Shown one piece after another: positions 12,269 to 19,602 of a stretch of DNA of 27,531 nt. This DNA comes from a virus: IMG/VR virus record IMGVR_UViG_3300030385_001612, positions 1-27,531 of that record. One strand, written 5' to 3'. Position numbers and translations under genes: made by a program. The notes below the pieces were generated by a model that made no database searches, was not told the DNA's origin, and saw only the letters and a list, made by a program, of their open reading frames with translations. Numbering within the stretch: position 1 is the stretch's first letter; the number at the start of each line of letters is the position of its first letter.

Positions 12269-12284
12269 GATTAAGTGTTTAATG
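12269..12284. promoter_or_regulatory. Palindrome in the MoxR leader (operator candidate)
   Basis: GATTAAGTGTTTAATG, a near-palindrome of the CATTAAGTATTTAATG family. It sits 21 bases upstream of the MoxR start, about 27-42 bases downstream of the predicted transcription start, close to the ribosome-binding sequence. The family has seven members in this window. Confidence 0.55.
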
Positions 12285-12316: not shown

Positions 12317-12345
12317 AATATAACACATTTTTATTTACTGTTCAA
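12317..12345 (-). promoter_or_regulatory. Sigma-70-type promoter of the MoxR operon (P1)
   Basis: On the minus strand TTGAAC (12345-12340) and TATATT (12322-12317) are 17 bases apart, a strong -35/-10 pair with an A-rich spacer. It closely resembles the promoter at 13791-13819, including flanking bases GGGGAA before the -35. Transcription would start near 12310 and give a leader holding the palindrome at 12269-12284. Confidence 0.7.
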
Positions 12346-13186: not shown

Positions 13187-13344
13187 GCCTCACTTATTAT
13201 GTCGGCTGACTCATGCACCTTCTTGCTACGAAGCACCCTTCCGAATCGTGCATCAAGATTCTCTCGCTCCATGGTGCGTACAGGCTCCGGTTTCGTTTGG
13301 CACTTGACCACAAGTTCCATGTACTGCTCATCATTCGTGTCCAT
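13162..13344 (-). CDS. Hypothetical protein, 60 residues
   Basis: ATG at 13344 is chosen because AAAGGAGAGAAGT lies directly upstream; a longer start at 13371 lacks this. The protein is charged and helical (ELVVKCQ, ENLDARFGRVLRSKKVHE) and ends with hydrophobic GLGGAL. An operator-like palindrome at 13373-13388 lies 29 bases upstream of the start. No family recognised. Confidence 0.5.
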   Translation of the reverse strand: MDTNDEQYMELVVKCQTKPEPVRTMERENLDARFGRVLRSKKVHESADIISEAWGLGGAL

Positions 13345-13372: not shown

Positions 13373-13388
13373 CATTAAACATTTAATG
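13373..13388. promoter_or_regulatory. Palindrome before the 60-residue gene (operator candidate)
   Basis: CATTAAACATTTAATG. Outer arms CATTAAA/TTTAATG are perfectly inverted. It overlaps the stop codon (13383-13385) of the preceding gene and lies just upstream of the next gene's ribosome-binding site. Confidence 0.55.
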
Positions 13389-13709
13389 AGAACGGATTTT
13401 ACTATCTCTCTCCTCAGTGAAGGACAGGTTACCAGGGAGTGACTTGTTAAGAGTGTAGGCTCCAGTGGTAGGCATCTCAGCTACCTTGTGGCCCTCCCTC
13501 TCCCTCCATGTCTCAACATGGAAGTCTTTGTTGCGTAGGAACTGTCGAGTCAGGTTGTTGGCTCGTACTTGCTCACCTCTGGCCATCATCCCGATATACT
13601 CTCCGATCATCTGCTTGCGTAACACGCTACATCCGATGCGCCGTAGGCATGATGGGATTCGTGGCTGACCTGACGACAGTGTCCTCCGCTTGATGCGGAT
13701 TCTTTTCAT
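13383..13709 (-). CDS. Hypothetical basic protein, 108 residues
   Basis: ATG at 13709 after GAGAGGAGAGG; a start at 13751 would run across the palindrome. The protein is highly basic at the start (KRIRIKRRTLSSGQPRIPS) and has a central MIGEYIGMMARGEQVRANNLTR that could be a helical DNA- or RNA-contact segment. The C-terminal part is polar (EERDSKIRSH). It is the first gene of the leftward module and follows promoter P2. A nucleic-acid-binding or regulatory role is possible because of charge and position, but no family is recognised. Confidence 0.5.
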   Translation of the reverse strand: MKRIRIKRRTLSSGQPRIPSCLRRIGCSVLRKQMIGEYIGMMARGEQVRANNLTRQFLRNKDFHVETWREREGHKVAEMPTTGAYTLNKSLPGNLSFTEERDSKIRSH

Positions 13710-13724: not shown

Positions 13725-13740
13725 CGTTAAGTACTTAATG
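13725..13740. promoter_or_regulatory. Palindrome between P2 and the first leftward gene
   Basis: CGTTAAGTACTTAATG, in which the inner TTAAGTACTTAA is a perfect 12-bp palindrome. It sits 16 bases upstream of the start at 13709 and about 45-60 bases downstream of the predicted start of transcription from P2, the same arrangement as at MoxR. Confidence 0.6.
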
Positions 13741-13790: not shown

Positions 13791-13819
13791 AATATAACGG
13801 ATTTTTATTATATATTCAA
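13791..13819 (-). promoter_or_regulatory. Sigma-70-type promoter of the leftward module (P2)
   Basis: On the minus strand TTGAAT (13819-13814) and TATATT (13796-13791) are 17 bases apart. The spacer and the GGGGAA before the -35 are shared with P1 at 12317-12345. A palindrome lies on each side (13725-13740 downstream and 13833-13848 upstream). Confidence 0.75.
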
Positions 13820-13832
13820 TTCCCCCGTTAGT

Positions 13833-13848
13833 CATTAAGTATTTAATG
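13833..13848. promoter_or_regulatory. Palindrome between P2 and the small terminase gene
   Basis: CATTAAGTATTTAATG, the exact consensus of the family. It lies 14 bases upstream of the P2 -35 box and directly before the tandem repeat that leads to the small terminase gene, so it may affect both directions. Confidence 0.6.
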
Positions 13849-13850
13849 GC

Positions 13851-13910
13851 TACACCCTGGCGACCGTAATCTTTGGTTGGTACACCCTGACGACCGTAAT
13901 CTTTGGTTGG
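13851..13910. repeat. Two tandem 30-bp repeats containing CGACCGTA
   Basis: Units 13851-13880 and 13881-13910 differ at one base. Each contains CGACCGTA (13861-13868 and 13891-13898) and ends in CTTTGGTTGG. The same octamer recurs three times just after the small terminase gene and once at 16506-16513. Binding sites for the small terminase or a replication/partition protein are plausible. Confidence 0.65.
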
Positions 13911-13925
13911 TCATTGACGGAGATA

Positions 13926-14387
13926 ATGGGGATATATATCGTGGTGACCATGAAGACCCGCCCCACGATTACACCCAAGCAGAACGCGTTCGCTTCATTC
14001 GTGGCCTCCGGTGACAACAACACGGAAGCCTATCGTAAGGCATACGATACCTCCAAGATGAGCGAACAGGTGATACGGAACTCTGCGTTCAAGCTCTCCA
14101 AGAACGAGAAGGTGAAGACTGCCATCAAGTCTCTGAAGAAAGACACGCAGAAAGAGAGGCGGGCACATCGAAAGCTGACTGGCGACTGGATCATTGAGCA
14201 ATTGCAGGATGAGGCAGCGAACGAGAAGAATCCTGCGGCCAGTCGTATCAGGGCACTGGAATTGCTAGGAAAGAAGATGGGATTCTTTGAGGACAGTACC
14301 CTTGTGACGGTGAAGAACCAGTCACCGGAGGAGATAGAGAAGGAACTAATGGAGAAGCTTGGGGCGATCCTTTCTATCGAAGCCTGA
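13926..14387 (+). CDS. Terminase small subunit
   Basis: The family core begins MKTRPTITPKQNAFASFVASG, then NNTEAYRKAYDTSKMSEQVI and RNSAFKLSKNEKVKTAIKSL. This is the helix-turn-helix type N-terminal region of phage small terminases (Terminase_2-like), which bind the packaging site and feed DNA to the large subunit. The C-terminal half is helical, with EEIEKELMEKLGA as a likely oligomer region. Start: ATG at 13926 has GGAG three bases upstream; ATG at 13950 gives a more typical N-terminus (145 residues) but a weak site, so the start is uncertain. The gene stands alone, 5.2 kb before the large subunit and flanked by repeats, an unusual arrangement. Confidence 0.75.
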   Translation: MGIYIVVTMKTRPTITPKQNAFASFVASGDNNTEAYRKAYDTSKMSEQVIRNSAFKLSKNEKVKTAIKSLKKDTQKERRAHRKLTGDWIIEQLQDEAANEKNPAASRIRALELLGKKMGFFEDSTLVTVKNQSPEEIEKELMEKLGAILSIEA

Positions 14388-14401
14388 CAGCATGGGGGTC
14401 A

Positions 14402-14504
14402 TCTCATTAAGTATTTAATGACGACCGTACCACCCTCGCGGGCGACCGTACCATCCTCGGGGGCTTCTCATTAAGTATTTAATGACGACCGTACCACCCT
14501 CGCG
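14402..14504. repeat. Composite repeat: two palindromes with CGACCGTA motifs
   Basis: Two identical 39-bp copies at 14402-14440 and 14466-14504 (period 64) each hold the palindrome CATTAAGTATTTAATG (14405-14420, 14469-14484) followed by ACGACCGTACCACCCTCGCG. Between them lies a third, similar unit, GCGACCGTACCATCCTCGG. CGACCGTA occurs at 14422, 14443 and 14486. The same two elements occur in the same order upstream of the small terminase (13833-13910), so the gene is bracketed by the array. Confidence 0.7.
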
Positions 14505-16336: not shown

Positions 16337-16581
16337 TGTTCTATTCCTTTTTGTTGAATGAATCAAGCCAAACTACACTTCCCTTACTAGAAGATGGTTC
16401 GCAGGCAAGTCAAGATCCCGATGCCAGAAGTAAGAAGATAGGACGCCAGTAGACGAGGGAACTTTACTTGACAAGTCCATCTTCGTACCAGAAGGGTTTT
16501 TGTGGCGACCGTATCCCCTTGATATGGTGTTCTTTATTTTTTTAAGTTGTCTTGGTTGTTCTAGTTTTGTTTTGCTGAATC

Positions 16582-18073: not shown

Positions 18074-18313
18074 CTAAAGGTAAGGGTCGCAACGCTCTTC
18101 AGCCCAAGCGTCTTCGATGCCGACCATGTCGTCGTAGAGGGTTTGGAAGAGGGTGTCATCCTCTACGATATCGTCGATGGTCTTGCCGTCTACGATAGCT
18201 TTGCTGGCTGAACGCAGGACGGACTCCATGACCAGGACAGTGCCGATACGTTTGGTTGCACTGTCAAGTAGGCCAAGTTGGTCGTCGTTGAGGGTATCGA
18301 AGGCGTAGAACAT
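18074..18313 (-). CDS. Hypothetical acidic protein, 79 residues
   Basis: ATG at 18313 behind AAGGAGTCAAC; a longer frame to 18439 runs through the palindrome region and lacks a site. The protein is acidic and helical (DDQLGLLDSATKRIGTVLV, IDDIVEDDTLFQTLYDDM). The palindrome at 18398-18413 lies 85 bases upstream. No family recognised. Confidence 0.5.
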   Translation of the reverse strand: MFYAFDTLNDDQLGLLDSATKRIGTVLVMESVLRSASKAIVDGKTIDDIVEDDTLFQTLYDDMVGIEDAWAEERCDPYL

Positions 18314-18373: not shown

Positions 18374-18413
18374 TAACGTGTTGTAACGGGTTGTAATCGT
18401 TAAGTGTTTAATA
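18374..18413. promoter_or_regulatory. Decamer repeats and palindrome upstream of the 79-residue gene
   Basis: The palindrome variant CGTTAAGTGTTTAATA lies at 18398-18413. Just before it are TAACGTGTTG (18374-18383) and TAACGGGTTG (18384-18393), two 10-bp units in helical phase, plus a CTTAACG/CGTTAAG inverted pair (18372-18378, 18398-18404). This is an operator-like cluster in the leader of the leftward genes. Confidence 0.5.
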
Positions 18414-18877: not shown

Positions 18878-19217
18878 GATTGGCTCCTAGAAACTAGAAT
18901 AAAGGATTAACTAACTTCCCTTCTCTTACCAGGAATTCATGAGATTTACGCCGTACCGACGAAGGAGGGGAGAGCGGAAATTTTAGGGATTCCGTACCAC
19001 GAGGTGCTTGGGAGCCTGGAGTTTGTTGCGGAGGTTGTATAGGGGGTACGGTTGTAAAGGTTGTCGAGTTGTCTAGGTTGCGAGTTGTTGGGTGGGTAGT
19101 GACCCCGGCCCCCCCCGCTGGAGACTGAGGGTTTTGCGGTTGTATAAAACACTGTTTTGGATATCCGATGAGCAAAATTTGTACTTTCTGTTACCGACCA
19201 CCATTTACGATGGCACC

Positions 19218-19265
19218 GTATTATCTAACTTGATAATCTATTTTTCTTTTCAAGTTAGATAATAC
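19218..19265. repeat. Perfect 16-bp inverted repeat
   Basis: Left arm 19218-19233 (GTATTATCTAACTTGA) and right arm 19250-19265 (TCAAGTTAGATAATAC) are exact reverse complements around a T-rich 16-base spacer. Either an operator with two half-sites or a stem-loop. It overlaps the predicted -35 box of the packaging operon promoter. Confidence 0.7.
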
Positions 19266-19276
19266 ATCTAGATAAT
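19247..19276 (+). promoter_or_regulatory. Candidate promoter of the packaging/head operon
   Basis: TTTTCA (19247-19252) and GATAAT (19271-19276) are 18 bases apart, a fair sigma-70 pair (4 of 6 and 5 of 6). It is overlapped by the 16-bp inverted repeat and by the palindrome at 19274-19302, which suggests regulation. Transcription would start near 19283. Confidence 0.4.
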
Positions 19277-19302
19277 CTAGACTAGATATCTAAGTCTAGA
19301 TT
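19274..19302. promoter_or_regulatory. AT-rich palindrome at the packaging operon start
   Basis: Arms AATCTAGACT (19274-19283) and AGTCTAGATT (19293-19302) are exact inverted repeats around AGATATCT plus one A. It overlaps the predicted -10 box and transcription start, 16 bases before the first gene, so it is a good operator candidate. Confidence 0.6.
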
Positions 19303-19317
19303 ACTTATATAGATAAT

Positions 19318-19602
19318 ATGGACAACAAACTTCTTTACGTTTTGGCCGACGCCGTTGATGCCTACAAAGCCGCTGGAATGCGGGGGAGAAATTATGTCAT
19401 CCTGGGGTACAAAGCCGATAAGCTCCTCAAGGATTACCCGAAGCATTATGCCCGTCATAGCAACGGCAAAGTGAAATTTGTAGGAAAAACCGCCGATGAT
19501 ATTTTGGAAGAATATCTTTCCGGGTTAGGTTATGACCCTGGAAGCAAAAGGTGGCATCAGTTAGTTAGCAGTGTAATCGACATATGCAGAGAGGGTAATT
19601 AG
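19318..19602 (+). CDS. Hypothetical 94-residue protein before the large terminase
   Basis: ATG at 19318. The upstream 18 bases (TTACTTATATAGATAAT region) contain no ribosome-binding sequence, unlike almost every other gene here. The protein is helical and basic (NYVILGYKADKLLKDYPKHY, RHSNGKVKFVG) with an acidic C-terminal helix. Its stop shares one base with the terminase start (TAGTG), so it is translationally coupled to it. A packaging-associated role is inferred from position only. Confidence 0.55.
   Translation: MDNKLLYVLADAVDAYKAAGMRGRNYVILGYKADKLLKDYPKHYARHSNGKVKFVGKTADDILEEYLSGLGYDPGSKRWHQLVSSVIDICREGN

Follow-up and report, generated by a model that had tools for sequence, protein, structure and literature searches.

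Class I activator sites are directional and lie at a set distance upstream of the -35 element of a sigma70 promoter. In Cluster A mycobacteriophages, many short stoperators serve one regulator, a known repressor; these sites are asymmetric 13-bp sequences found mostly in one orientation, their motif diverges in step with the genomes, and one lies near the regulator's own gene (PMC6550527). Direct-repeat boxes at terS also characterize the pac region of phage SPP1 (pacL, pacC, and pacR), where they overlap or adjoin a promoter and form two sites on either side of a central region (PMC6316719, PMC4737164). In that phage, the terS promoters fall within reach of pac, which overlaps them, and the two flanking regions are bound by TerS (PMC6316719); the isolated DNA-binding domain of the SF6 small terminase shows little sequence preference (PMC4737164). 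HTVC023P-type pelagiphages and phage DSL-LC04 have a TerL with 54 to 59% identity and, like the phages studied here, a gap of several kilobases between terS and terL that holds repeats. However, their repeats are unrelated, with no CCGTACC box array or shared dyad in the terS-terL interval, and the passages searched in papers on HTVC023P-type phages mention neither promoters nor palindromes nor intergenic elements.

We analyzed a 27.5-kb window that spans positions 1 to 27,531 of virus record IMGVR_UViG_3300030385_001612. Because the record is classed as linear, the window is probably a fragment of a larger genome. When a relative of its TerL was sought in genome contigs as a route to the host, none was found. 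The first-pass annotation had described a composite repeat array flanking a small terminase gene, and the gene is what it was taken to be: terS (13950..14387, plus strand) encodes 145 aa with matches to Pfam Terminase_2 (1.1e-6) and PHROG 51 (4.8e-17). We rejected the array as a chance repeat, as shuffled sequences contained no comparable copies, families, or bracketing.

The palindromic component is a dyad, TCATTAA-N4-TTAATGA, whose exact form CATTAAGTATTTAATG occurs at 13833, 14405, and 14469. These three copies had been reported correctly, but the set was incomplete: additional copies with two or three mismatches start at 12269, 13373, 13725, and 18398, for about seven sites in the window. 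Counting both strands of the near-symmetric sites, there were 12 dyad matches against 0.24 expected. Each of the additional copies lies 5' of a minus-strand gene. The dyad at 12269..12284 is 20 nt upstream of the start (12248) of an ATPase gene and downstream of that gene's promoter, while the one at 13373..13388 coincides with the stop of gpX and precedes a gene starting at 13344. The copy at 13725..13740 sits directly upstream of the gpX Shine-Dalgarno sequence (minus-strand ATG at 13709), and a weak copy with three mismatches (18398..18413) is found upstream of a gene starting at 18313. The exact, operator-like copy at 13833..13848 separates the gpX promoter from the divergent terS promoter and is overlapped by the -35 of a promoter-like match on the minus strand.

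Alongside the dyads, the window contains six copies of the octamer CGACCGTA, all of them on the plus strand (13861, 13891, 14422, 14443, 14486, and 16506). All six had been noted as exceeding chance, and shuffles bore this out: over both strands, their counts averaged 0.36 and never exceeded two. Upstream of terS, two 30-bp tandem units (13851..13910, plus strand) carry one octamer each; as described earlier, they form a repeat, with a single base differing between 13851-13880 and 13881-13910. Downstream on the same strand, unit 1 (14402..14440) joins the dyad at 14405-14420 to the box CGACCGTACC at 14422, a middle segment (14441..14465) holds another CGACCGTACC at 14443, and unit 2 (14466..14504) joins the dyad at 14469-14484 to the box at 14486. 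The two 39-bp units are identical, as claimed (53-nt repeat family, 91%). The sixth octamer (16506..16513, plus strand) is an outlier within the minus-strand operon.

The first-pass annotation had also proposed looking for the array in related phages, where we found that repeat arrays beside terS recur. In the relatives L004 and L005, whose terS is 96% identical, the downstream array is kept with its spacing preserved to within 1 bp. The middle box is present in L004 as CGACCGTACA, and the core of the outlying box, GGCGACCGTATCC, is retained there as well. The upstream dyad is also kept in L004, but only a single upstream box unit, with CGACCGTT, accompanies it, so the 30-bp duplication is specific to the window.

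Promoter-like sequences were detected independently of the dyads and boxes. The terS match, TTGACG-17-TATCGT (13914..13942, plus strand), has its -35 about 44 and 14 bp beyond the ends of the two upstream boxes. In the window (13937-13950) and in L004, L017, L036, and L044, the terS ATG is 6 to 7 nt past the end of the -10, a layout judged by eye; because of this short distance, the terS transcript is probably leaderless. Running leftward are TTGAAT-17-TATATT (13791..13819, minus strand), which would serve gpX and lies between the dyads at 13725 and 13833, and TTGAAC-17-TATATT (12317..12345, minus strand), with the dyad at 12269 downstream. Since shuffles already yield 3.4 sigma70-like matches against 7 in the window, each promoter is a consensus match rather than proof. 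Farther along, the region upstream of terL has repeats of its own. The stretch at 19020-19100 is GGTTGT-rich and iteron-like. Shortly 5' of terL, CTAG- and ATTAT-rich repeats with a period of about 14 bp (window 19250-19318) recur across the group (L030 5990-6045, L044 9717-9798, and L069 9825-9920) and are possibly a late promoter region.

We compared the dyads across 80 viral contigs recovered by a TerL search; these are environmental contigs with simple ORF calls. Other dyads occupied the same positions: GTTCATTAAAGTTTTAATGAAC in L017, GGTGGGA-N5 in L030, TGGGGAA-N3 in L036 and L044, and ATATCGGAA-N1 in L074 and others. Such differing families were present in ten relatives examined and in none of the shuffled loci. 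Requiring a dyad within 350 bp before terS and within 250 bp after it, we found the identical dyad on both sides of the gene at 8 loci, many of them mutually related, with 5 dyad sequences and 0 to 2 mismatches. With shuffled flanks, the best pairs had 4 to 7 mismatches and never matched. Dyads also lie 15 to 35 nt 5' of minus-strand starts in relatives, L066 alone having six perfect copies so placed, and in L017, L030, and L044 they directly adjoin the -35 of terS. The 58-kb record G001 has 11 dyads, every one of them within 18.0 to 28.9 kb, the region of the leftward operon and terS, with none elsewhere, structural genes included, and none in the control.

Thus, as in an operator regulon, near-identical sites stand at promoters and gene starts, and from phage to phage their sequence changes jointly at all positions while the positions stay constant. 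Operators of a diverging regulator would be expected to behave in this way, and the most suitable reading of the dyads is that they are operators for a putative phage regulator that diverges fast. The dyad centers are even in some phages and odd in others, which is unusual for one conserved dimer.

The octamer proved to be the local version of a wider directional box, RCRNCCGTACCT, which is strongly strand-biased: among the distinct copies in the scanned loci (about 0.9 Mb), 67 share the strand of terL and 4 lie opposite. A search with the 23-nt unit as signature matched no viral contig until it was relaxed. The double-box pattern CGYCCGTACCTNNCGYCCGTACC was found in only 22 stretches of a collection of 2.9 million viral contigs: 20 new loci, all carrying terS, terL, or accessory genes of the group, and the TerL relatives L026 and L062. 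Within the collection searched, the pattern is confined to one phage group. A variant box, GCGCACGTACCTAG, occurs 3' of more diverged terS genes (L077 7297-7548 and L074 1175-1386), and boxes are followed immediately by short G-rich or GCAGTC tandem repeats in L017 (4159-4236 and 5499-5558), L036 (7743-7830), and L044 (7554-7625). No dyad family was found in L049, L061, and L063, which hold up to 12 boxes, and L049 and L061 fail the terS bracketing test too. Dyad and box are thus separable elements.

In these box-rich phages without dyads, clusters lie in intergenic gaps along the rightward operon, whose genes include terS as well as a GP88 and a DUF932 gene. With a search distance of 100 bp, 21 of 52 distinct clusters had a same-strand sigma70-like promoter, compared with 9% of random intergenic points, although many clusters are related and the counts are therefore not independent. 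In every such case the -35 was 23 to 58 bp past the last box. These distances are loosely in helical phase (nominal P = 0.009 from nonindependent data), which is suggestive only. Terminal clusters, the last before the leftward operon, usually have no promoter after them, and the window's downstream array is one of these, with none following. We also considered whether boxes are tied to intrinsic terminators, a link we rejected on a modest excess (15 of 40 versus 18%). Because box clusters often precede sigma70-like promoters, as the window's two upstream boxes do at 14 and 44 bp from the -35 of terS, the dyad/box region is most likely regulatory.

The sequences themselves establish the positions, conservation, co-diversification, strand bias, and promoter proximity in relatives; protein binding, the identity of the binders, and the sign of regulation are inferred. 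The reading we favor, with somewhat better than even confidence, is a compound cis-regulatory zone in which dyad operators of one regulator are combined with directional protein-binding boxes. One putative phage DNA-binding regulator would act through the dyads on the leftward operons and on the divergent promoters of gpX and terS, and its occupancy beside promoters or ribosome-binding sites would probably block initiation or elongation. The CGACCGTA boxes would be the other protein-binding element, dependent on direction and placed on the strand of terL, and would usually control sigma70 promoters of the terS-side operon from upstream; the window has them ahead of the promoter of terS and, past the gene, as a terminal array.

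On this reading, the dyads would share with Cluster A stoperators (PMC6550527) the many short sites of one regulator, the motif that diverges with the genomes, and the site near the regulator's own gene. Unlike stoperators, they are dyads, are clustered at terS and the leftward genes, and have a putative regulator and no evidence of lysogeny. The boxes resemble class I activator sites in being directional, often within a set distance upstream of the -35, and perhaps loosely helix-phased. They differ in their multiple tandem copies, in the terminal clusters without a promoter, and in having a putative binder.

Candidates for the binding proteins were sought in the window itself. The 108-aa gpX (13383..13709, minus strand), whose promoter is flanked by two dyads, has no Pfam match, and no DNA-binding domain was found in it. 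It has a recognizable relative in L017, with more distant links uncertain, and lacks clear conservation across all dyad-bearing phages. We rejected it as the dyad binder for want of a DNA-binding domain and for its weak homology between dyad classes. A small winged-helix protein (440-697) is encoded beside a spanin-like gene and is conserved in G001, G002, and L097. As it is also found in phages without dyads, it is an unlikely dyad binder and was rejected in that role; it is a candidate box binder.

An alternative raised by the first-pass annotation is that the array is a pac-like site. TerS would bind the boxes, the dyads, or both on either side of its gene and loop the DNA in the manner of SPP1 gp1 at pacL and pacR; TerL would then cut nearby for headful packaging toward terL. 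The array lies at or near terS, as pac does in SPP1, and by location a pac role of the window's downstream array is plausible. Most relatives that carry boxes and have an identified terS show a box cluster about 40 to 360 bp past the stop codon of that gene, on the same strand as terL. The overlap of SPP1 pac with terS promoters (PMC6316719) also speaks for this reading. Moreover, G001 (58.3 kb) and G003 (54.8 kb) are colinear but circularly permuted relative to each other, which fits headful packaging without placing its start, although contigs may break anywhere. Unrelated repeat arrays in the terS-terL interval of HTVC023P, HTVC027P, 023Pt_psg01, and DSL-LC04 fit pac but also any fast-evolving control region. 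However, unlike SPP1 pac, box clusters in this group recur several kilobases away, with 3 to 5 clusters over about 4 kb before separate promoters. Dyads reach leftward genes as far as 11 kb from terS, their sequences change together, and some box-bearing phages have no dyads. A fixed terminus at the array was rejected on the lack of a sharp peak among contig ends, an indirect measure because metagenome contigs cannot settle ends. We regard a pac site as possible but unlikely. It is quite unlikely that TerS itself binds the dyads, the boxes, or both, repressing or activating phage operons while marking DNA for packaging, with its specificity and the terS-bracketing dyads diverging together.

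Action at the RNA level would make the dyads hairpins before ribosome-binding sites and the boxes single-stranded sites next to hairpins, in nut-like or translational control. The dyads just 5' of Shine-Dalgarno sequences, the GC-rich 7-bp stems before six genes in L066, and the boxes alternating with GC hairpins in L041 would suit this idea. Yet dyad 13833 lies between divergent promoters, which disfavors a hairpin, since no transcript should cover it or the dyads that adjoin the -35 of terS. Of the boxes, those at 13861, 13891, and 16506 either precede the start of terS or run antisense to the operon on the minus strand, and several dyads have loops of merely 1 to 2 nt; we consider the RNA reading decidedly improbable. 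The earlier suggestion of a replication or partition origin with iterons gained no specific support and seems highly implausible. Same-strand boxes do repeat at short spacings, and the window encodes a ParB-like protein and a primase-helicase, but the former is a broad PHROG match only, no initiator gene was found beside the array, and the boxes are spread over several kilobases before promoters. Cumulative GC skew tracks gene direction, with a broad minimum.

The preferred reading of a compound regulatory zone involves known kinds of element, but in a clade-wide arrangement that is undescribed. It provides an 11- to 12-bp directional signature, RCRNCCGTACCT, which in these data is restricted to one phage group. 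Should TerS prove to be the binder, packaging would be linked with gene control. More broadly, the locus offers a testable case of rapidly diversifying putative operators in uncultured phages, with positions conserved around terS and sequences that are not.
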